Shown here: in pieces, positions 42,427 through 52,763 of the stretch
Numbering within the stretch: the stretch's first letter is position 1
How the letters are laid out: each line of letters starts with the position of its first letter
NCBI GenBank assembly: GCA_020438215.1
Contig: JAGQUX010000016.1
Coordinates: 1 to 58,403 of the forward strand
Source: Armatimonadota bacterium
GTDB lineage: Bacteria > Armatimonadota > Fimbriimonadia > Fimbriimonadales > Fimbriimonadaceae
Direction of reading: 5' to 3'
Length of the DNA stretch: 58,403 nucleotides
Notes under the pieces: generated by a model
Database searches by the model: none
Told to the model about the DNA's origin: nothing
What the model saw: only the letters and a program-made list of their open reading frames with translations
Made by a program: the position numbers and the translations under genes

Positions 42427-42500
42427 GCGGGCGTAGCTTAATGGTAAAGCTCCAGCCTTCCAAGCTGGCCACGTGAGTTCGATTCTCATCGCCCGCTCCA
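42427..42500 (+). tRNA. tRNA-Gly (anticodon TCC)
   Basis: GCGGGCG (42427-42433) pairs with CGCCCGC (42490-42496). The anticodon stem CCAGC/GCTGG encloses loop CTTCCAA with TCC at 42459-42461. The T-loop TTCGATT is present, and CCA is encoded at 42498-42500. Confidence 0.97.
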
Positions 42501-42592
42501 AACCCTCCTTCAAAACTGTGAGCCCGTTTTGGCGTCTTGCTCTCTAGTTCATTCTAAAATCTCAACAGGATTTGCATTGAATTAGGAACCAT

Positions 42593-43438
42593 ATGCTTAC
42601 TCAACTTTTGAGCGTCGTCACTCTGAATCCAGAAAATTCAGTGATCGCTACATTCCCAGTCGAAGGCTATGGATACAGATTTGAGTCTGATGGAGACACT
42701 ATTTCCATCATTTCGCTTTATGGCGCAAAGGTGTTTTTCAAAGATTTTGATTGTAAAAAAAGAACCTTAGAAAAACGAGAATTTGAAGGGGTTTATCGTG
42801 GCACACACGAAAATGGAAAGGCTGTCATATTAGCGAACATAGGAGGATTGAGCCCACGAGACTATGAAGACTCGGGAGTGACTTACGAATACGGCAAGGC
42901 AAAGATGCGTGTTGACGAAGGCATACTCTATTCACACACAGCCCTCGAAAACACCCCCCCTTTCTATACAGGCTTCACCTACCGAACACTGATCCCAAAT
43001 CCTGTGGACGAAGCACGGTCGCGGGGGAAGCAGTTCATCGGAGTTTTGTACAAATGGGTGGATGCTCCTAAGATCACCTATTATCGAAGCGAAAACTACA
43101 AATTGAAGCGAGTCGCGGAATACCCCATTGATGGTTTAGAAGGAAAGCGTGCAGGATTTAATGACGCTAAGTTCTGGAACGGAGAGATTCTGGATACTTA
43201 CTGGCAGTCTCAGGTGACAACCTTTCATCCGGGCGGTGACTTGATTGACTTTAGTGCAGTCAGGCAAAACATAACTGTGTACTGGTATCGGCACAACTTG
43301 AGGGACGGCTTTTTCAATCGCAGAACCTTCTCTTTGCGGAATGTAGACGGTAACGAACTGAGCCGATTCTACGTTACTGAGTCAGGTAAGTACGGGTGCT
43401 GGATACATGGAAAAAGGGCATACATCCTTGCGCATTAA
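42593..43438 (+). CDS. Hypothetical protein
   Basis: 281 aa; not recognised. ATG 42593 has AGGAA upstream. No strong signal peptide (MLTQLLSVVTLNPENS). It is rich in Tyr, Phe, Gly and charged residues, likely beta-rich. It starts 93 nt after the tRNA-Gly(TCC) CCA end. It has lower G+C than the housekeeping genes, as have the other hypotheticals here that follow tRNA sequences. Confidence 0.65.
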   Translation: MLTQLLSVVTLNPENSVIATFPVEGYGYRFESDGDTISIISLYGAKVFFKDFDCKKRTLEKREFEGVYRGTHENGKAVILANIGGLSPRDYEDSGVTYEYGKAKMRVDEGILYSHTALENTPPFYTGFTYRTLIPNPVDEARSRGKQFIGVLYKWVDAPKITYYRSENYKLKRVAEYPIDGLEGKRAGFNDAKFWNGEILDTYWQSQVTTFHPGGDLIDFSAVRQNITVYWYRHNLRDGFFNRRTFSLRNVDGNELSRFYVTESGKYGCWIHGKRAYILAH

Positions 43439-43488
43439 ACTGCTTGCCTTAACCACAAAGGTGATTTTTACCCAGATCTTCCCTCTTA

Positions 43489-43710
43489 CTACAATTCTCC
43501 GCGCCGGCTTTTGTATACAAGAAAGCCAATGATAAGCGCGATGAGGATCAGTGTGGCTCCGATAGCAATATGAACTGCCGGGCTGCCGGGAATCAATCTG
43601 AAAGGCGAGCGATAACTCGTTTGTCCACGAATTCCCTCGTCGATGCCGACGATGCCAAAAACAGCAATGATTCCGGCGATCCATGTCCATGACTGTTCCT
43701 TATCATTCAT
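43489..43710 (-). CDS. Small two-helix membrane protein
   Basis: 73 aa on the opposite strand to its neighbours. Two hydrophobic helices (WTWIAGIIAVFGIVGI and VHIAIGATLILIALIIGFLVY) flank a short polar loop, with a basic C-terminus. No family recognised and no good ribosome-binding site. It fills the only sizeable gap between 43438 and 43828 and is composed like a membrane protein, so it is probably real. Confidence 0.5.
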   Translation of the reverse strand: MNDKEQSWTWIAGIIAVFGIVGIDEGIRGQTSYRSPFRLIPGSPAVHIAIGATLILIALIIGFLVYKSRRGEL

Positions 43711-43827
43711 TGTTTGGTATCAATACTTACGTCGGCGAGTTCCTAATCGGCTCTTCTTTGGCCTTTGCGTATTAGCCGCGTACAGACTGGCCCTTTTCTA
43801 TCGTCTTCAATTAGCAGAGGGTTATTG

Positions 43828-45030
43828 ATGTTCGTAGCTGCAATTTTCCCGCTGGTGCCACCCCAGCGCATCCCCGAGTTGCCCATACCGAGCCTCAGGC
43901 GGGGTGAGTATCCCCAACAACTCATGCTCCACTTCTCGGAGCCGCGGGTGGTGACATTCAAAGGCTCATGGATTGGGCACCAAGATCGCAATTTTTTTGG
44001 TCAGTCGCGGGGCGATAAGCGTTTCGAAACCTTCGTGATTCACACCTCTGCCGATACGAAGCCAGTTGATCTGATTTGGCCGGTGATCTCCGATTCTGCT
44101 CAAAGGAAGCTAATCGATAAAGTCTGGCAAGACTTTGCGTATTCCGAGGAAGGGGACTATGTTGTCTTCGGTCGGCGCCCAAAGGGCGGTTGGATTGACG
44201 TTTTGTCGCCTGTTGGTAAGCAACGCCACGGCGTAGGCATGGATGCGTTTTGGACGACTTCGCTAGAGTCAAGGAGTGTGACTGAGTTCAGCGTTTACTC
44301 CATTTTCCGTAAGAGAAAAACGGCGAAGGTGATCAGCCAACCTGCCGAGACCATCGTGGATCATTTCCAGGTTGTGATTGACGCTGTCGATTGGAGCGAT
44401 GAGGCATCGGCTCTTTCCTTTGGGAAAACGTACTTAGGAATGCGAAGGAACCTTGAGATGTTGAAAGATCCGGTGGTTTATAAGATTGGCGAGATGTGGA
44501 GGGATGCCGCCCACAAAGAAAAGAACCCGCTTGCCAAGGCAATGATGTACTCGATGGCCTATAAATTCACCAACTACGATTCCAGATTGCTTGCCTGCGA
44601 AAGCATCATGAAGTCTGATGTGGCGGATACCATCGAGAATCGATATCAGCTGAATTACATCGCCCAGCAAGCTACAAGCAATGCTTTCACGGGTAGTGGT
44701 GATTATCGTCACTACAGACAGAACAATGATCCGGAGAAGCTCAACAGGCAGCTCAGACTGGTTTTGAACACCGACAATGAAGCCAAGCGAAGCTTCATTG
44801 GGAGGATGTTTTATGGTGGCCGGAATGAGGAAACCGATGCTCTTTTGCTGAAAGTTCTGGAGCAGGCAACACCCGATAAGCCGTCTTCAAATGTTTTGAT
44901 AATCTCCGGGTACCAGAACCAGTATCTCATGCTCGGGCCAACAGTTGCCCACGGGGGTGGCGATGCTTTGCGGCTCGATATGATACGGATATTGAAAGAG
45001 CGGATCAAGAGTTGCGACGAGGTGCGATGA
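43828..45030 (+). CDS. Hypothetical exported protein with helical C-terminal half
   Basis: 400 aa from ATG 43828, with GAGG upstream. Unrecognised. N-terminus MFVAAIFPLVPPQRIPELP may be a short signal. Residues about 20-200 look beta-rich. Residues about 200-390 look alpha-helical in a repeat-like pattern (AKAMMYSMAYKFTNYDSRLLACESIM, then RQLRLVLNTDNEAKRSFIGRM), perhaps TPR/HEAT-like. The tRNA-Gly(CCC) promoter begins 14 nt after its stop. Confidence 0.65.
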   Translation: MFVAAIFPLVPPQRIPELPIPSLRRGEYPQQLMLHFSEPRVVTFKGSWIGHQDRNFFGQSRGDKRFETFVIHTSADTKPVDLIWPVISDSAQRKLIDKVWQDFAYSEEGDYVVFGRRPKGGWIDVLSPVGKQRHGVGMDAFWTTSLESRSVTEFSVYSIFRKRKTAKVISQPAETIVDHFQVVIDAVDWSDEASALSFGKTYLGMRRNLEMLKDPVVYKIGEMWRDAAHKEKNPLAKAMMYSMAYKFTNYDSRLLACESIMKSDVADTIENRYQLNYIAQQATSNAFTGSGDYRHYRQNNDPEKLNRQLRLVLNTDNEAKRSFIGRMFYGGRNEETDALLLKVLEQATPDKPSSNVLIISGYQNQYLMLGPTVAHGGGDALRLDMIRILKERIKSCDEVR

Positions 45031-45044
45031 ACTCGCTGTGTGAG

Positions 45045-45074
45045 TTGACAGCTACAGGCAACAAGGGGTTGAAT
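45045..45074 (+). promoter_or_regulatory. Promoter of tRNA-Gly(CCC)
   Basis: TTGACA (45045-45050), 18-nt spacer, TTGAAT (45069-45074), 14 nt before the tRNA. The same -35 box and spacing recur in the 154-bp repeats at 50531-50560 and 51620-51649, there with TTAAAT as -10. Confidence 0.7.
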
Positions 45075-45088
45075 AGGTCGAGAGATAC

Positions 45089-45163
45089 GCGGGAGTAGTT
45101 CACTGGTAGAACGTCAGCTTCCCAAGCTGAATGTAGCGAGTTCGATTCTCGTCTCCCGCTCCA
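45089..45163 (+). tRNA. tRNA-Gly (anticodon CCC), intact, at the left edge of the RHS island
   Basis: GCGGGAG (45089-45095) pairs with CTCCCGC (45153-45159). The D-arm is GTTC/GAAC. The anticodon loop TTCCCAA has CCC at 45121-45123. The T-arm contains TTCGATT, and CCA is encoded at 45161-45163. A short CCAG/CTGG stem with T5 (45161-45182) may terminate it. Exact fragments of this gene occur at 45246-45274 (5' part, inverted), 50614-50659 and 51703-51748 (3' part). Confidence 0.97.
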
Positions 45164-45198
45164 GGTTCAAAAGCTGGTTTTTACGTTGTAAGTTTTTT

Positions 45199-45224
45199 GG
45201 AAAGCTACGCGTACCGTAGCTTCC
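45199..45224. repeat. Hairpin between the tRNA and its inverted 5' fragment
   Basis: AAGCTACG (45202-45209) and CGTAGCTT (45215-45222) form an 8-bp stem. The right arm and its start (TACGCGTA...GCTTCC) also match the left end of the 154-bp repeat at 51595 with a 5-nt gap, linking this spot to the repeats on the far side of the island. Confidence 0.55.
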
Positions 45225-45245
45225 AGAGCTAAGCGTAGAATGTCA

Positions 45246-45274
45246 CTGACGTTCTACCAGTGAACTACTCCCGC
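45246..45274 (-). repeat. Inverted exact copy of the 5' 29 nt of tRNA-Gly(CCC)
   Basis: Read on the minus strand, 45274 to 45246 is identical to tRNA positions 45089-45117 (acceptor 5' strand, D-arm, part of anticodon stem). Homology stops exactly at tRNA base 29: the next base is T instead of C. Upstream flank GAGAGAT is shared with the intact gene with a 2-nt shift. The complementary 46-nt 3' part occurs at 50614 and 51703. Confidence 0.9.
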
Positions 45275-45306
45275 ATCTCTCTTTGGTTTTCAAAAAAGGA
45301 AAGCCA

Positions 45307-47007
45307 ATGAGATTGATGAAGAACTTTCACGAGCGAGTCACTTTCGCCGTTGATGCTGCAGGGCAAACTGTCTCTGTGATCAACTCTCGCGGATACATCA
45401 CGACATCAACTTATGATGAAGTAGGTCGGCAAGTCGAAACCATTAACCCAGATGGTGGAACATCCACGATGTACTATGATGGCGCAGGCCGAAACATAGC
45501 TTATGAAGACCAACTCGGATATCTGAGCACCACGGTCTACGATAACGCATCACGCCCAGTCAATTCTGAATCCCCTGATGGTGCAGTAACCACGACCACC
45601 TATGATGCCGCAGGTCGAGAGGTCAGCTTCGAAGATCCGCTCGGAAACACGAGCCAAACTCACTATGATGCCGCTGGTCAAGTCGTCAGCACGATTAATG
45701 CCCTTGGTTTTGTTTCTACTTACACCTACGATGGTATTGGAAACCTCAAAACCTCTGAGAACCCGCGTGGCATGGTGACAACTAACGCCTATGATGCGCT
45801 GGGAAGAATGAAATCTACTCAGAATGCTGCGGGCTACTACACCTCATACACTTATGATGAGGTCGGAAACCAAACTGAAATCACAGATGCTAGAAATGCC
45901 GTGATTACAATGGCGTATGACCTTCGTGGTTCAATGACTTCCATTGAAAACCAGCTCGGTAACGTTACAACCTATGCGTATGACGCCATTGGTCAGACCA
46001 AAACTCGTGAGTTTGCCAGCGGTGATGTTACGACCTATTCCTATGATGCCAACGGCATGGAAACCTCCCGGCAGTACATGGATGATAGCCGTGTGACTTT
46101 CACCTACGAAAGCAATCTGATGACTGAGATGTCAGATAGCACAGGGGTGACAACCTATTCTTATGACAATATGGGCAGGTTGAGTGGAAAGACAGATCCC
46201 GGCTCGCTGGTGCAATCTTATCAATATGATGTTGCTGGGCAAAGAACAACTCTCACCGATCCAGATGGAGTTGATCGAGTCTACGGATACGATGGTAATG
46301 GTCGCCTAGTCTCCTTCGAAGACACAGATTCAGAAGACGGTTACACCAATGAATATGATCTTGCCGGACGCCTGACAACGACAACGTACACAAACAGTTC
46401 GGTTGATAAGGGTGACGAGCTCACTACTTACGATGCGGCAGGTCAGCCTCTGGTGAAAACAACCCGCGCAAGTGGAGTTATCAAGACCATTGTTACTTAC
46501 ACCTATGATGGCAATGGCAACCCAGCGACCAAAAAGACCGAAGATGGCTACGTCCAAACCTTGCAATACGACCGAGTGGATCGGCTAACAACGGTCATCA
46601 ACACCGGCCCGCAGAACTTCACGTGGTGGTACACCTTCGATGCGGTTGGAAACCGAACGAATGCTAACGAGTGGAGTGGTGGTACGCCGTACACCTACAA
46701 CCTTTCAGGCCAACCAGTAACGAGTGTGTACATTGGAGCGGGCAACAAAACATCCACCTACACCTATGATGTCAACGGAAACTTAATAGGAGTTGAAGGT
46801 TACATCCCGCCGAGCGGTGCCCCAGTTGCCGTAGATATTGAAAACACCTACGACTACGAAAACCGGCTCCTCACCAACAAGAATGTTGCGGATGGCTCGA
46901 TTGTGACGTACACTTACTCAGGTGATGGATTGAAGCGAAGTGAGACAACCAGTTCAGGAACCACGACTTTGGTTTGGGATGGCGACGAATATCTAGGAGA
47001 AGTTTGA
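45307..47007 (+). CDS. YD-repeat (RHS) protein, N-terminally short body
   Basis: 566 aa from ATG 45307 with AAGGAA at 45296-45301. The protein is almost entirely YD repeats, about 22 copies of the pattern (T/S)TYDxxGR, for example TYDEVGR, YYDGAGR, TYDAAGR, QYDVAGQ, TYDVNGN, and ends LVWDGDEYLGEV. RHS/YD proteins form a hollow beta-shell around a C-terminal toxin. This one lacks a signal peptide, PAAR or any N-terminal export domain, and stops at TGA 47005. Just there the next ORF continues the RHS core in another frame. It is either a split two-gene RHS or needs a frameshift. Confidence 0.9.
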   Translation: MRLMKNFHERVTFAVDAAGQTVSVINSRGYITTSTYDEVGRQVETINPDGGTSTMYYDGAGRNIAYEDQLGYLSTTVYDNASRPVNSESPDGAVTTTTYDAAGREVSFEDPLGNTSQTHYDAAGQVVSTINALGFVSTYTYDGIGNLKTSENPRGMVTTNAYDALGRMKSTQNAAGYYTSYTYDEVGNQTEITDARNAVITMAYDLRGSMTSIENQLGNVTTYAYDAIGQTKTREFASGDVTTYSYDANGMETSRQYMDDSRVTFTYESNLMTEMSDSTGVTTYSYDNMGRLSGKTDPGSLVQSYQYDVAGQRTTLTDPDGVDRVYGYDGNGRLVSFEDTDSEDGYTNEYDLAGRLTTTTYTNSSVDKGDELTTYDAAGQPLVKTTRASGVIKTIVTYTYDGNGNPATKKTEDGYVQTLQYDRVDRLTTVINTGPQNFTWWYTFDAVGNRTNANEWSGGTPYTYNLSGQPVTSVYIGAGNKTSTYTYDVNGNLIGVEGYIPPSGAPVAVDIENTYDYENRLLTNKNVADGSIVTYTYSGDGLKRSETTSSGTTTLVWDGDEYLGEV

Positions 47008-47390
47008 CATGGCATTGAAGAAGCGATATTACAGTCTGAATGGTCAGATCCTGGGAGAGCATGATGTGTCGTCTGGTCAAACGCTTCAATATGCGCGTGA
47101 TGCTCTCGGGAATGTCCGTAAGACGATAGATTCAGATACGGGAAACGTTGTTCACTCCTATATCTATAAGCCTTGGGGTGAGATTTGGCAAGCTTCTGGA
47201 ACAGGTGCAACAAGCCGAAGGTTCTGCTGGATTGGTTCTTGGGGTTATGCGAATACCAACCGGCACTACCAGTTCAATTCGTACTATGTGCGGGCAAGGC
47301 ATTACTCTGGTGTAATGGGGGCGTGGATTACTAGAGATCCTTTGTGGCCAACAGAAATGCCATATGGGTATGGAGAGGGAAGAGTTTACA
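46997..47390 (+). repeat. Duplicated RHS core-end segment, copy 1
   Basis: From GAGAAGTTTGACATGG at 46997 to about 47390, this is nearly identical to 48563 to about 48956 (constant offset 1566). It encodes the last 130 or so residues of the RHS core including the RARHYSGVMGAW hallmark. The repeat begins upstream of the ATG, inside the last codons of the YD body. Confidence 0.9.
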
Positions 47391-48154
47391 GTGGAATTGA
47401 TTATGACGGAACGCAATTTTTGAACACATCTGTTAAGGTCGCCTTTTTTGGCCAGTGTTGCAAGCAAATTATTATCACGACCAGTGGTGCTAGCCATGGA
47501 GTGTTTTCTATGGGATCCTCTAGTTGTGAGTGGAAAAATACTGGGAATTGCAGAAATCTTCAAAGCGAGGTGGAAAAATGCCCTTATATAACATGGGAAG
47601 GCTTCTGTGAGATGTTAGAGAAATCAAAATGTTGCAGTATAGCTAAGCAACTAGGCGCGGATCCATATAGTGTATGTACAACTGCAATAACTGAAAGAAG
47701 CAGACGCAATGTAACAAACGGTATTCAAGATTACTATGGGTCTGCTGGCGTGCCGCTCAGCAAAAAAGGAACTATTAAGACTGCGAGCGTCGGATGTATC
47801 CAAGTGCAAGTTCAAACAGCAAATTTGATACTCGATCAAATTGTCAAGTGTTCTAACAGAACCGTGCGCGGTAAATTATTACGAAGTCTTTTCCCTATAC
47901 CTGCGACAGATGAGTTGCTGTTGCAGAAACTCTCGACTGATTGCGAATGGTCTCTAAAACTGCTTGCAGCATTGAATGTTCTGGTGAAATCTGGCTGTGC
48001 ATCTAGGTTTGGTAAGGTTACTAAAACAGGTGAATCCGTAGATTACATGAAGCCAGAGTCGTTTCCGCGTATCTGGAATGTTGGTAGTGGGCCGCATAAG
48101 AAGGCAACAGAGTGTCTATATTCAATTCTAAAAAAGTACAATATTTGTGGATGA
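47009..48154 (+). CDS. RHS core end fused to a cysteine-rich unknown tip (cassette 1)
   Basis: 381 aa. Residues 1-130 are the end of an RHS core (KRYYSLNGQILGEHDV, YARDALGNVRKTIDSDTG, YVRARHYSGVMGAWITRDPLWP). Residues about 135-381 form a unique tip with about 15 cysteines, including CC pairs, and no family I recognise; it is the likely effector domain. ATG 47009 has AGGAG nine bases upstream (46995-46999) and begins one base after the previous TGA, so it can be translated by reinitiation, or joined to the YD body by a +1 shift. The tip coding region is visibly A/T-richer. Its stop overlaps the next start (ATGA). Confidence 0.85.
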   Translation: MALKKRYYSLNGQILGEHDVSSGQTLQYARDALGNVRKTIDSDTGNVVHSYIYKPWGEIWQASGTGATSRRFCWIGSWGYANTNRHYQFNSYYVRARHYSGVMGAWITRDPLWPTEMPYGYGEGRVYSGIDYDGTQFLNTSVKVAFFGQCCKQIIITTSGASHGVFSMGSSSCEWKNTGNCRNLQSEVEKCPYITWEGFCEMLEKSKCCSIAKQLGADPYSVCTTAITERSRRNVTNGIQDYYGSAGVPLSKKGTIKTASVGCIQVQVQTANLILDQIVKCSNRTVRGKLLRSLFPIPATDELLLQKLSTDCEWSLKLLAALNVLVKSGCASRFGKVTKTGESVDYMKPESFPRIWNVGSGPHKKATECLYSILKKYNICG

Positions 48155-48564
48155 GACCACTGTTTGGATTTCTCGTCGCAACGGTATTCATTCTCTATTT
48201 GAGTGATCGTTTACTAAGCCCTGAGTCCCCTGTTACAGTGTTAGTGGGAGTTTCAAACTATGAGTCCGCAGAAACTCCAGTGCTATTTGTCATAACGAAT
48301 AAAGGTACATACTGCTCGGAAATCAAGCACGCACAAGGTGACAGCGGATTAAATGATCTTCAATTTCCTGTTGAATCTGAAATATCTTTCTATCTTTCAA
48401 ACACCAAAATTATGAACTCTTTATCAGATCATAAAACGCGATTTGATACTGCATATGGTGTACTTTTTCTTTGGGAAGACGGCTTGTATCTCAGGGGGGT
48501 TCTACACTATGAGGGCCAGCAGAATCTAATTATACGCACCTATAGATTCCGGCAGTTCTTATGA
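48151..48564 (+). CDS. Candidate immunity protein for cassette 1 (membrane-anchored)
   Basis: 137 aa from ATG 48151 (ATGA overlap with the tip gene; the frame is open upstream to GTG 48112). It has one N-terminal membrane helix (PLFGFLVATVFILYLSDRLL) and a beta-rich domain expected outside the cytoplasm. No family recognised. Small size, translational coupling to an RHS tip and a unique sequence are what immunity genes look like, and the topology suggests its toxin acts in the periplasm or at the membrane. Immunity function is inference. Confidence 0.7.
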   Translation: MRPLFGFLVATVFILYLSDRLLSPESPVTVLVGVSNYESAETPVLFVITNKGTYCSEIKHAQGDSGLNDLQFPVESEISFYLSNTKIMNSLSDHKTRFDTAYGVLFLWEDGLYLRGVLHYEGQQNLIIRTYRFRQFL

Positions 48565-48956
48565 GAAGTTTGACATGGCATTGAAGAAGCGATATTACAG
48601 CTTGAACGGTCAGATCCTGGGAGAGCATGATGTGTCGTCTGGCCAGACACTTCAATATGCGCGTGATGCTCTTGGAAACGTTCGCAAGACCATCGATTCA
48701 GATACGGGAAACGTTGTTCACTCCTATATCTATAAGCCTTGGGGTGAGATTTGGCAAACCACTGGAACAGGTGCAACAAGCCGAAGGTTCTGCTGGATTG
48801 GTTCTTGGGGTTATGCGAACACCAACCGTCATTACCAGTTCAATTCGTATTATGTGCGGGCACGTCATTACTCAGGTGTGATGGGTGCGTGGATGACTCG
48901 TGATCCACTATGGCCCATGGAAATGCCATATGGATATGTTAATGGAAGGGTCTATC
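48563..48956 (+). repeat. Duplicated RHS core-end segment, copy 2
   Basis: Counterpart of 46997-47390. The left boundary lies at the stop codon of the 48151 gene. The copied block includes the 12 nt before the ATG, that is, a fragment of the YD-body end with its TGA, showing that the split arrangement existed before duplication. Confidence 0.9.
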
Positions 48957-49666
48957 TGGCTGTTGATCCAAGCGGAATGCTGGAGGCGAAGAAGATAGCT
49001 TGTGGAAACAAGACAGGCAAACTGTTCTGTCCTCAAAGGGGCAAACATTGCGGATTTGTAGTTGGCGCACCGTTAGTTGGTAATCGAAGGCCAGCCATTT
49101 CGCTTGAGGAAGCAAGAAAGTGTCTTCCCAGCAAGAAGAATTGCGTTGCAATAAACGGTAGCTTGTTCTCTGGATCAAGCGGGCCATTAGCAAAGCGCGT
49201 GTGCTTACCAGAGTGTGGTGGTACCACAGCTGGAATCGGAAACCCCAAGGGAGTTGACCAAATGGATACAAGATACATACAGTTTGTTCATTCTCAAGGC
49301 AGCGAGAGATTCGAGCAAAGACTTTATGGTAGACGAATTCTGACTGCAAATAGAGATTGTAAAGATGAGATTTGGCAAGGTCAAGTCGTTGGAAGTGCAG
49401 CTAGGCCCCGAACGTTTGCATTTATGAAAGGAGGAAATTTGTGTTTTGCTATCTTTGCGAAGCCGGGATTGACAGGTAAAGAAGTTTGCCAATGCGTAAA
49501 GCAGCATGCTGACAAAGGAAGTTACGGAGTTGCCTTAGATGGAGGGCGATCTACGCAGGCTTGGAACGTTCCCGCAAATGGAAAGCCACAAGTAATAGAC
49601 TTCCCACATCAAAATGATGGAGGTAATACAAGACTTGATAACTGGGTATTCTTATGTGATTGCTAA
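48575..49666 (+). CDS. RHS core end fused to a phosphodiester glycosidase (DUF2233/NAGPA)-like tip (cassette 2)
   Basis: 363 aa. Residues 1-130 nearly duplicate the 47009 product; DPSGM closes the core. The rest resembles the NAGPA/DUF2233 fold: CVAINGSLFSG matches the vNGgFF strand, ARPRTFAFMKGGNLCFAIFA the central strands, and GVALDGGRSTQAW the DGGgSt active-site motif. These enzymes cleave sugar-phosphodiester linkages. About a dozen cysteines are inserted. The ribosome-binding site is weaker than in cassette 1 (GAGAAG only), fitting an orphan tip expressed poorly until recombined onto the body. Confidence 0.8.
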   Translation: MALKKRYYSLNGQILGEHDVSSGQTLQYARDALGNVRKTIDSDTGNVVHSYIYKPWGEIWQTTGTGATSRRFCWIGSWGYANTNRHYQFNSYYVRARHYSGVMGAWMTRDPLWPMEMPYGYVNGRVYLAVDPSGMLEAKKIACGNKTGKLFCPQRGKHCGFVVGAPLVGNRRPAISLEEARKCLPSKKNCVAINGSLFSGSSGPLAKRVCLPECGGTTAGIGNPKGVDQMDTRYIQFVHSQGSERFEQRLYGRRILTANRDCKDEIWQGQVVGSAARPRTFAFMKGGNLCFAIFAKPGLTGKEVCQCVKQHADKGSYGVALDGGRSTQAWNVPANGKPQVIDFPHQNDGGNTRLDNWVFLCDC

Positions 49667-50432
49667 GGGAGCATTTTTTGCGGTCATTATTGTGATGTTC
49701 TTCGCCTTACTGTTAGGATGCAGCCAAGCGGTTAATAGTAATAAAGGGCTGAACCATGTTGAAAGTGCACATAGTGTCGGAACGAGGTTAGTCAATGTGG
49801 GAGGCACTGGGATTCCTGTGACCGGAGGTCATCTCAGGCATGTCTCCAAGAGTGATCGTGGCAGTTCATATTTTGTAGAGTTATGCGGATACAATTCAGG
49901 AACCTGTGTATTAAACGAGGTGAGTTCGGAAGGATTACTTCTCAGTGCGGAAGTCAAAGACAGGCCAAAAACTGATTTTTCTGATCTCAAAGCTCCATAC
50001 AAGGTGATTTGCGCTGAAGCAGAGGGGTATGAAGTTGTAGCTCAAGCAATGGTTGACAAAAGCAATCAGAGGCAAGTAGCAGTATATATTCGAAAAAAGA
50101 GTACAGATCAGAAACTAATTCTTGTAGACGAAGAAGGCGGGAGTGCTGACTCTGCTCTGAATATGAATGATGATCTAGAGAGTATCTCCATCGTATATGC
50201 AAGCGAGTCCAAGGTGCTTTTGCATATTGGATCCCCAGTTGGAAAGCTTGCCCTTTGCAATTTTGATGAGCAAAGCGTAAATCCAGTTGAGTTGGATACA
50301 ATGGTGTACTCAGCCCTCGTGATAGATTCCCGTGTGTACTTAGGGCTCTATAAGCTGGATGAAACAAACGGCGACGGGCCGATATGGGACGCATTTATTG
50401 ACGATATCCCCCTCAGTGAGATTTTGGACTAG
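49656..50432 (+). CDS. Candidate immunity lipoprotein for cassette 2
   Basis: 258 aa from GTG 49656 (ATG 49614 is an upstream in-frame option); it overlaps the end of the tip gene. The N-terminus IAKGAFFAVIIVMFFALLLGC is a lipoprotein signal with lipobox LLGC. The mature part is beta-rich with repeating strands, possibly a propeller. A lipoprotein would sit where an enzyme attacking glycan phosphodiesters acts. No family recognised; immunity role is inferred from order and overlap. Confidence 0.65.
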   Translation: MIAKGAFFAVIIVMFFALLLGCSQAVNSNKGLNHVESAHSVGTRLVNVGGTGIPVTGGHLRHVSKSDRGSSYFVELCGYNSGTCVLNEVSSEGLLLSAEVKDRPKTDFSDLKAPYKVICAEAEGYEVVAQAMVDKSNQRQVAVYIRKKSTDQKLILVDEEGGSADSALNMNDDLESISIVYASESKVLLHIGSPVGKLALCNFDEQSVNPVELDTMVYSALVIDSRVYLGLYKLDETNGDGPIWDAFIDDIPLSEILD

Positions 50433-50505
50433 ACCCAATATTGCAGATAAAGCCCTTTTGAGTAGGAGCAAAGCCATGACGATGTGGATGAGAAAAGGTT
50501 GTCAA

Positions 50506-50659
50506 TACGCATAGCTTCCGGGTGTGAGCATTGACAGCTACCCGCAACAGAAGGTTAAATGTGCCTTGAATCCCAAAGATAGATTGGAAGATGAACTGAA
50601 AGGGTCGGGGCTACTTCCCAAGCTGAATGTAGCGAGTTCGATTCTCGTCTCCCGCTCCA
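50506..50659 (+). repeat. 154-bp direct repeat, copy 1: tRNA-type promoter plus 3' 46 nt of tRNA-Gly(CCC)
   Basis: It contains TTGACA (50531-50536), an 18-nt spacer and TTAAAT (50555-50560), about 53 nt unrelated to tRNA, then 50614-50659, identical to tRNA bases 45118-45163 including CCA. It differs from copy 2 at only four positions, all in the first 45 nt. The 3' piece starts exactly where the inverted 5' piece at 45246 ends. CGGGG just before it (50605-50609) could pair with the acceptor strand TCCCG. Confidence 0.9.
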
Positions 50660-50678
50660 AGTTTGCTCAGGGTGAGCC

Positions 50679-51503
50679 ATGATTTCATTTCTGCCTTTTT
50701 ACGTTTCATATCAGCAAGTGAATTCAGTTGAAGTGGTAGTGGAATCCGAAGATCACTATTATGTGAACAGCTTAGCGAGCTCTTCTGAATCAAAGCAGAC
50801 AGAGCTAGCGAGGCACTGTGAATCAGATCAGCTTTTTGGAGCTCATAAAATCCTCAGTAATGGCGACTATGTCGGCGTTTACTACTGTTACAATACAAAA
50901 AAAATAGAATTGATCGTTTCCCGAAAGGGGAAGCAAGTTTACTCCAAATCGATGTCATCTAAAGGTTACAATAGATTTTTGCGTTCTAGTAAAAGCAATT
51001 TGGTGATAATTGATCCCAGTAAGTCCTTTACGCTCAATGTCGATGTGAAGAACAGGTATAGCCTTTCGAGTGCTGACGTATATGGGGATACATGGGCGGA
51101 TTGGAGGTTTGTTCTAGCGCGTGAAGGTGAGGATGGCTGGGAGAGGATCATGTACCCGCATACTTGGTTGTTGTTTCCTCCGTTTGACATGTTTTGCGGC
51201 TTTGATGCCTACTCGAGGTGGTGTACGAACTCTCCAAATCTCATTGATTACTGGCTAGTTGATCAGATTGAAGAAAACAGTTTGAAGATCAGAAAGTTTT
51301 CGATGTCAAAGGATCCCGATTATCCTCCTAAGTACTCTCGCAAGATGGTGTCTCTCCCGATCGCTTCCATGCAAGACTATGATTTCATTTTCGCGACAAA
51401 CGAGCTCCTTTATGTTGTGGAGACTGACACGATCAGTGGATATTCCGGGGAAGAAAGGGTGTTTAGGAAACACATGACAGGGATCGTGGGTGTGGTTCGC
51501 TAG
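50679..51503 (+). CDS. Hypothetical protein following tRNA-Gly 3' fragment 1
   Basis: 274 aa; not recognised. Starts MISFLPFYVSYQQVNSVEV, 19 nt after the tRNA fragment's CCA, with AGGGTGA upstream. It is mostly beta-strand pattern with many Tyr, Ser and Lys residues and A/T-rich codon use like the RHS tips. It may be an orphan immunity protein or cargo of a mobile segment bounded by the two 154-bp repeats. Confidence 0.65.
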   Translation: MISFLPFYVSYQQVNSVEVVVESEDHYYVNSLASSSESKQTELARHCESDQLFGAHKILSNGDYVGVYYCYNTKKIELIVSRKGKQVYSKSMSSKGYNRFLRSSKSNLVIIDPSKSFTLNVDVKNRYSLSSADVYGDTWADWRFVLAREGEDGWERIMYPHTWLLFPPFDMFCGFDAYSRWCTNSPNLIDYWLVDQIEENSLKIRKFSMSKDPDYPPKYSRKMVSLPIASMQDYDFIFATNELLYVVETDTISGYSGEERVFRKHMTGIVGVVR

Positions 51504-51594
51504 GTTAGGGATAGTAAGAGTTTAATTTGTGCAAGAACTGATGCAGGTCGCTGGCATGTCGCCTTAAGCATCGTAGAGTCAGAAATTCGCATAA

Positions 51595-51748
51595 TACGCG
51601 TAGCTTCCATGTGTGAGCATTGACAGCTACCCGCAGCAGAAGGTTAAATGTGCCTTGAATCCCAAAGATAGATTGGAAGATGAACTGAAAGGGTCGGGGC
51701 TACTTCCCAAGCTGAATGTAGCGAGTTCGATTCTCGTCTCCCGCTCCA
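51595..51748 (+). repeat. 154-bp direct repeat, copy 2
   Basis: Same layout as 50506-50659: promoter-like TTGACA (51620-51625)/TTAAAT (51644-51649) and the tRNA 3' 46 nt at 51703-51748. The last 108 nt are identical between the copies, suggesting recent duplication or gene conversion. The repeats bracket the 50679 gene. Confidence 0.9.
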
Positions 51749-51842
51749 CGTTCAAACACTGCTTCTCCATTTTCAAGTCAGCGCGTTGTAGATGCAATGC
51801 GGTGGCGTGAGATGGAAGCTGCGACAAAGTGCGGAATAAACG

Positions 51843-52763
51843 ATGGTAACTCTCATTTTTGCTCAAGCATTGGTGGCCAATCCCATACAAATGGATTGGT
51901 ATAAGTCTCAAGATGTATTGTACATAGCAAGCAGATTGGATGCCGATGGAGTTGTGGTTTGTGACAGGAAGAAGAATCTTGTTCTTGACTCAAATGCAAA
52001 AGTGGAAAAAGAATATGAGCGTCAAGAAAACGGACGCGTATTAAGGTATCTAGTCGATTCGACATTAAATGATGCTGCCATGCTGATTTTCCAGCCTATG
52101 CAATATAACATCGCATCTGAATCTAAGTCGTCGCTGTTTGCTCAAGACTATGTGTTTGGTCAAGGCCCAAACACAATATCCATTGGGTGGGGTTGTACAG
52201 TCAAGACGCTGCTGTCGAGTTACTCGAAACCTTCTTTTTCACGTTGGAACTCTGTTATCTCCCATCCAAATGGAAAGCAAATTACGTTTGTTGAGAGCGA
52301 TCCATCAGCCTCAACGATCACTGAAATGAGGTTCAATGGTAACTCTTGGGCCACCTCCCGCGGGCCGTTTGTGCCTTGGAGTGACGATGTTGCAGTTGCA
52401 AGTGTTATTCCTGGATTTAATGATGGGTGTTATCTATCTGAAAACATCATCTTATTTATGGGGGAAGTCATATTTCCAGAGGGGGTATCAAATTTACGTT
52501 CAGAACGCATGTTTCCAGATGTCAGCCTTGAGATGAGTGAGGATGCCAACCACTCAATCTATCTTTTTGCTTATGACTTGGACAGCCAACGCTTAAAAAC
52601 AGTACTCACTTTGCGAATTTCTTGGTCTGGGGAACACCGAATTACGACGTATGGAGACATAGTTAGTTCACACGATAATAAGTTTGTTTATTTTAATCAC
52701 AGGTATGGTGTCGCAAAAATCTCTACGCAAGCTATTCTTGAGAAGATGAACCCTCAGGGGTGA
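51843..52763 (+). CDS. Hypothetical protein following tRNA-Gly 3' fragment 2
   Basis: 306 aa; not recognised. MVTLIFAQALVANPIQ is a possible short signal peptide. The body has repeating strand-turn patterns (YFNHRYGVAKIST, LFAYDLDSQRLKTVLTL) suggestive of a beta-propeller sensor-like fold. It begins 94 nt after the second tRNA fragment and is A/T-rich. It is parallel in position to the 50679 gene; the two share style rather than clear sequence identity. The 147 bp after it holds nothing I recognise. Confidence 0.65.
   Translation: MVTLIFAQALVANPIQMDWYKSQDVLYIASRLDADGVVVCDRKKNLVLDSNAKVEKEYERQENGRVLRYLVDSTLNDAAMLIFQPMQYNIASESKSSLFAQDYVFGQGPNTISIGWGCTVKTLLSSYSKPSFSRWNSVISHPNGKQITFVESDPSASTITEMRFNGNSWATSRGPFVPWSDDVAVASVIPGFNDGCYLSENIILFMGEVIFPEGVSNLRSERMFPDVSLEMSEDANHSIYLFAYDLDSQRLKTVLTLRISWSGEHRITTYGDIVSSHDNKFVYFNHRYGVAKISTQAILEKMNPQG

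Follow-up and report, generated by a model that had tools for sequence, protein, structure and literature searches.

Described systems relevant to the locus analysed here are displaced 3′ tDNA fragments of the Islander type, which were left by 3760 of 3919 islands, with 2083 islands having anticodon-centred sites (PMC4383910); tandem islands without an integration module, known from Dehalococcoides (PMC3146451); and toxin-immunity arrays with orphan immunity genes, described for Rhs/CDI systems (PMC3150448) and for the T6SS of Vibrio cholerae (PMC5361080). Here, a window of 58,403 nucleotides (the whole stretch of DNA analysed, from a 2.64-Mb draft genome of an Armatimonadota bacterium) was found to carry two hybrid sequences in which the 3′ half of a tRNA-Gly(CCC) gene is preceded by a foreign segment and by an upstream region resembling that of the intact gene. 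It is reasonably probable that both hybrids are remnants of a single duplicated and broken copy of tRNA-Gly(CCC), left as scars when an Rhs array was assembled beside it; the region is rich in repeats, of 160-300 bp, and the assembly is a draft in 119 contigs, of which the window is contig 27, which is a caveat throughout. The features are collected in Table 1.

Table 1. Features of the tRNA-Gly(CCC) locus and the adjoining Rhs array (positions in the window).
Feature	Position	Strand	Basis or remark
Upstream (promoter-like) region of intact tRNA-Gly(CCC)	45038..45074	+	TTGACA-18-TTGAAT
Intact tRNA-Gly(CCC), parent sequence	45089..45163	+	ARAGORN; Rfam RF00005, 66.7 bits; identical to G006 gene
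Ancestral trailer and palindrome 3′ of intact tRNA	45164..45237	+	Common to relatives G005 and G006
Inverted tRNA 5′ half and adjoining leader	45246..45282	-	95% over 37 nt; tRNA nt 1-29 at 45246-45274
Rhs core (YD repeats), N-terminally truncated	45283..47007	+	PF05593, 2e-61; RHS_core profile positions 422-762 of 1261
Free-standing Rhs tip 1	47009..48154	+	TIGR03696, 1.7e-5 (below cut-off); 91% identity to tip 2 over first 135 aa
Immunity-like ORF behind tip 1	48112..48564	+	Position only; no family match
Free-standing Rhs tip 2	48575..49666	+	TIGR03696, 8.5e-8; relatives' arrays
Immunity-like ORF behind tip 2	49614..50432	+	Position only; no family match
Hybrid copy 1	50504..50663	+	Foreign piece 50585-50613; tRNA nt 30-75 with CCA 50614-50659
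Orphan ORF, possible immunity gene	50679..51503	+	Array position; 19 nt past tRNA end of copy 1
Hybrid copy 2	51593..51752	+	Foreign piece 51674-51702; tRNA nt 30-75 at 51703-51748; then trailer-like GTTCAAA
Orphan ORF behind copy 2, predicted Rhs immunity gene	51843..52763	+	E=4.8e-11 to G018 protein; no family match

The two copies form a direct repeat of 160 nt with 97% identity, their five differences falling at 50511, 50520, 50521, 50547 and 50660 only. An earlier, sequence-only reading of this DNA had recognised the repeat, which is real, but put it at 154 bp; its identical block of 108 nt is likewise genuine but measures 112 nt (50548-50659). From 5′ to 3′, an upstream region and a leader are followed in each copy by 29 foreign bases and then by tRNA nt 30-75, CCA included. 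The tRNA 3′ half is kept in both, as had been stated, and matches at 100%; nt 1-29 are replaced by a foreign piece of exactly 29 bases, and both copies stop a few nt past the tRNA 3′ end.

The upstream regions of the copies agree with that of the intact gene at 31 of 39 aligned positions, an agreement that none of 500 shuffles equalled and that spans the surroundings of both hexamers. This homology argues for descent of the hybrids from the tRNA gene itself. The hexamers of the previously suggested tRNA-like promoter (TTGACA-18-TTAAAT) are present, but a promoter scan omits the pair, because position 2 of the second hexamer is not the A that is almost invariant there, which makes for a weak -10 element. 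No counterpart of the copies' upstream region was found ahead of the tRNA gene in G005 or G006, nor a credible match in any of 84 other family genomes; one partial DNA match, in an apparent gyrA coding sequence of G024, and a second in a coding-like stretch were both taken as chance. The copies are also traversed by a short open frame (VSIDSYPQQ...), for which 60 relatives offer no homologue.

Between the end of the TTAAAT hexamer and the tRNA part lie 53 nt, which had been regarded as foreign throughout. That description holds for the last 29 (TGGAAGATGAACTGAAAGGGTCGGGGCTA, equal in length to the missing tRNA half) but not for the first 24, which contain a stretch resembling the tRNA leader: TTGAATCCCAAAGATAGAT matches the leader of the inverted half, TTGAAAACCAAAGAGAGAT, at 16 of 19 positions and stands in register with the mature tRNA 5′ end. 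The likeness of these leaders, in that register, is consistent with a common origin in a broken tRNA gene, although taken alone it is only moderately significant (the score is attained in 9 of 500 shuffles when the register condition is not applied), which counts against this origin. The 29-nt piece has no second site in its own genome with up to 3 mismatches allowed, no source in the genomes of the family and no likeness, in either orientation, to the sequence around the tRNA. This want of a traceable source, and the equal length of the replacement, which random repair does not require, also weigh against the preferred reading.

Further support for breakage comes from the region immediately downstream of the intact gene, one of only two tRNAs called in the window by ARAGORN and Rfam (the other being Gly(TCC) at 42427). 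There, the ancestral trailer and palindrome are followed by an inverted tRNA 5′ half, and then at once by the Rhs core. The inverted half comprises nt 1-29 at 100% and terminates exactly at nt 29, the same 29|30 split at which the direct copies begin their tRNA part. The exact division of complementary pieces into 1-29 and 30-75 is the signature of a breakpoint, indicating that a duplicated tRNA gene was broken between nt 29 and 30. Moreover, the segment 45164-45237 aligns with the sequence downstream of the relatives' tRNA with a score of 40 (shuffle maximum 32; 0 of 1000 shuffles), and the trailer start GTTCAAA occurs behind copy 2, behind the intact gene here and behind the genes of G005 and G006; ancestral sequence retained at the intact gene and a trailer start retained at copy 2 both agree with duplication and breakage of that gene.

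Several other observations concern this neighbourhood. The leader and 5′ half at 45081-45117 recur inverted 128 nt downstream (37 nt), and a read-through transcript toward the Rhs gene would contain antisense to the tRNA 5′ half. The Gly(TCC) and Gly(CCC) genes are separated by 2.6 kb (42501-45088) holding two ORFs without Pfam match; in seven relatives examined they stand in tandem, 16-63 nt apart, and in G001 they too are separated, by about 6 kb.

The surrounding genes constitute an Rhs tip array with putative immunity genes; it has an Rhs core and tips that share an N-terminal part and have variable C-termini (PF05593, TIGR03696). Both tips begin with the same 300-nt segment (repeat 46994/48560). 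The putative immunity role of the small ORFs is suggested by position for all but one, that behind copy 2: the gene for its distant homologue in G018 shares 4 nt with the end of an Rhs tip gene, which is the position of an immunity gene, and this homologue also favours the origin of the hybrids in Rhs array assembly. The ORF behind copy 1 has neither a homologue in 60 relatives nor a family match. No toxin gene precedes either of the two orphans, and the proteins behind the copies are unrelated by BLASTP despite the 97% identity of the copies themselves, which favours the scar reading. Rhs tip arrays are common across the family, and several others carry duplicated non-tip pieces, a habit in keeping with rearrangement at this locus.

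Other features of the arrays were noted in passing. Core and tip are separate genes, with 1 nt between the TGA of the core and the ATG of the tip (47005-47009); a similar split junction is present in G018 (L080 11695), and division of Rhs proteins in this way may be characteristic of the family. Beside the Rhs tip array of G018 (L080 4267-6384), a 705-aa protein resembles, by eye, a large serine recombinase. The C-terminal part of tip 2 includes a stretch, VALDGGRST, that by eye recalls phosphodiester glycosidase (NAGPA-like) domains, with no Pfam match.

An intact tRNA gene followed on the same strand by direct 3′ fragments that begin in the anticodon arm (nt 30-75 at 50614 and 51703) is the published signature of genomic islands (PMC4383910), and displaced att fragments are a fairly unlikely alternative that has to be weighed. 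Two small tandem islands, 45164-50659 and 50660-51748, would have integrated at tRNA-Gly(CCC) by crossover in the anticodon arm; a 3′ tRNA fragment would remain from each, with the upstream region, leader and 29-nt piece as the common end of the islands. That the copies stop only a few nt past the tRNA 3′ end fits this scheme, and tandem islands devoid of an integration module have the Dehalococcoides precedent (PMC3146451). However, the contig encodes no integrase, and the five tyrosine integrase genes of the genome (PF00589) lie on other contigs. The sequence behind the intact tRNA should be island DNA but is the ancestral one; behind the last fragment, where chromosomal sequence would be expected, the flank of copy 2 agrees with the sequence downstream of the relatives' tRNA at GTTCAAA only. 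In addition, the pieces have no overlap sequence in common at their 29|30 junctions, the scheme leaves unexplained why the upstream region of the intact tRNA has homology in the copies, and 20 other Rhs arrays of relatives contain no stray fragment of the 48 tRNA sequences used as queries. The proposal of "att-like scars" in the sequence-only reading is supported in its second word, through the common 29|30 breakpoint; its first word is fairly unlikely, with no integrase on the contig and conserved sequence behind the intact tRNA. It is very improbable that the tRNA 3′ half is a reusable recombination site adding single immunity genes beside tRNA-Gly with a ready-made promoter and without an integrase of its own.

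Rearrangement of a broken tRNA gene could have proceeded as follows. An extra copy of tRNA-Gly(CCC) would have arisen by duplication and broken at 29|30 during the recombination that brought cassettes of Rhs tips and immunity genes in beside the intact gene. Its 5′ half would have landed inverted next to the truncated Rhs core, while the 3′ half, upstream region and leader kept direct orientation, with 29 foreign nt filling the place of the 5′ half. The resulting 160-bp piece may then have been duplicated recently, either along with an orphan immunity-type gene or through recombination on its flanks. A simple inversion of 45246-50613 was considered and rejected: it would restore one whole tRNA but misplaces the upstream region and leader of the copies. 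That such an inversion leaves some pieces unexplained counts against the rearrangement as a whole.

The hoped-for additional copies of the identical block did not materialise: besides real tRNAs, its own genome holds only the two known copies, and 84 other family genomes hold none. A block confined to this place was part of what the sequence-only reading had named as its own refutation. Beyond this genome, matches in 60 relatives are short and confined to tRNA-Gly 3′ parts; those whose loci were inspected belong to ordinary tRNA-Gly genes, many of them TCC and CCC pairs in tandem. Two records in the species collection contain the exact tRNA 3′ half, and they correspond to the intact genes of G006 and G005. 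Among 85,000 species there is no exact match to the 46-nt junction of the 29-nt piece and the tRNA 3′ half, the 21-nt junction has none in viral contigs, and no synteny was detected between the window around the tRNA and the relatives' tRNA loci.

This absence of conservation in relatives, together with the lack of a tRNA-like fold, favours a scar. Folding z-scores against shuffled sequence range from 0.01 to 0.82 for the hybrids and reach -3.22 for the intact tRNA. The fold without a D-arm that had been proposed for the transcript is possible but no better than chance: it has -10.1 kcal/mol, as opposed to -21.5 for a different minimum, and pairings of the same kind occur in 868 of 2000 shuffled 29-nt inserts (43%). 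The hybrids yield no RF00005 match and no ARAGORN call, and no Rfam family attains its gathering score, even when this stretch is searched by itself under permissive settings. The suggested small RNA is thus not supported by folding, pairing or family searches, and the sequence gives no sign of a new tRNA-like RNA made from the hybrids. tRNAs are targets of some Rhs/CDI toxins, and a functional tRNA-like decoy or regulator would suit both a neighbouring toxin system and 112 identical nt that include CCA; with chance-level pairings, no folding signal, no Rfam match and no other genome carrying the block, such an RNA is extremely improbable.

If the copies have a role at present, it is probably a modest one, as upstream sequence and 5′ leader for the two orphan immunity-type genes. 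Because retained orphan immunity genes are thought useful, the copies may act as a promoter or leader for them and were possibly co-opted in this capacity, although the weak -10 element speaks against promoter use. Selection may instead have spread a tRNA promoter with a neutralised tRNA body as a module for constitutive orphan immunity expression. The orphan ORF behind each copy, the conservation around both hexamers between the intact gene and the copies, and the expression of orphan immunity genes elsewhere (PMC3150448) suit such a module, but the -10 element lacks its A, 94 nt separate copy 2 from its gene, and two recent copies are all there is, so that their identity need not imply selection; we regard the module as improbable. 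If the copies do drive the orphan genes, the remains of a tRNA gene would have found new use as a promoter; if they drive nothing, the locus would be a local scar without wider consequence.

Among the closest known systems, tRNA pseudogenes derived from gene duplication resemble the hybrids in having the parent gene close by, an identical 3′ part and a non-functional body; the hybrids differ in that the 5′ half was swapped for an unrelated piece of equal length, and the product was then duplicated again. Islander-type fragments share the intact tRNA with downstream direct 3′ fragments from the anticodon arm; in contrast to them, this locus has no nearby integrase, keeps ancestral sequence behind the intact tRNA, and includes an inverted 5′ half and a tRNA-derived upstream region within the fragments. 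The orphan Rhs/CDI arrays (PMC3150448) and the orphan immunity arrays of the V. cholerae T6SS (PMC5361080) show the same truncated core, N-terminally alike tips and toxin-less immunity-type genes. Unlike either, the array described here has tRNA-gene fragments between its last immunity-type genes, illustrating how toxin-immunity arrays can acquire parts of an adjoining tRNA gene.
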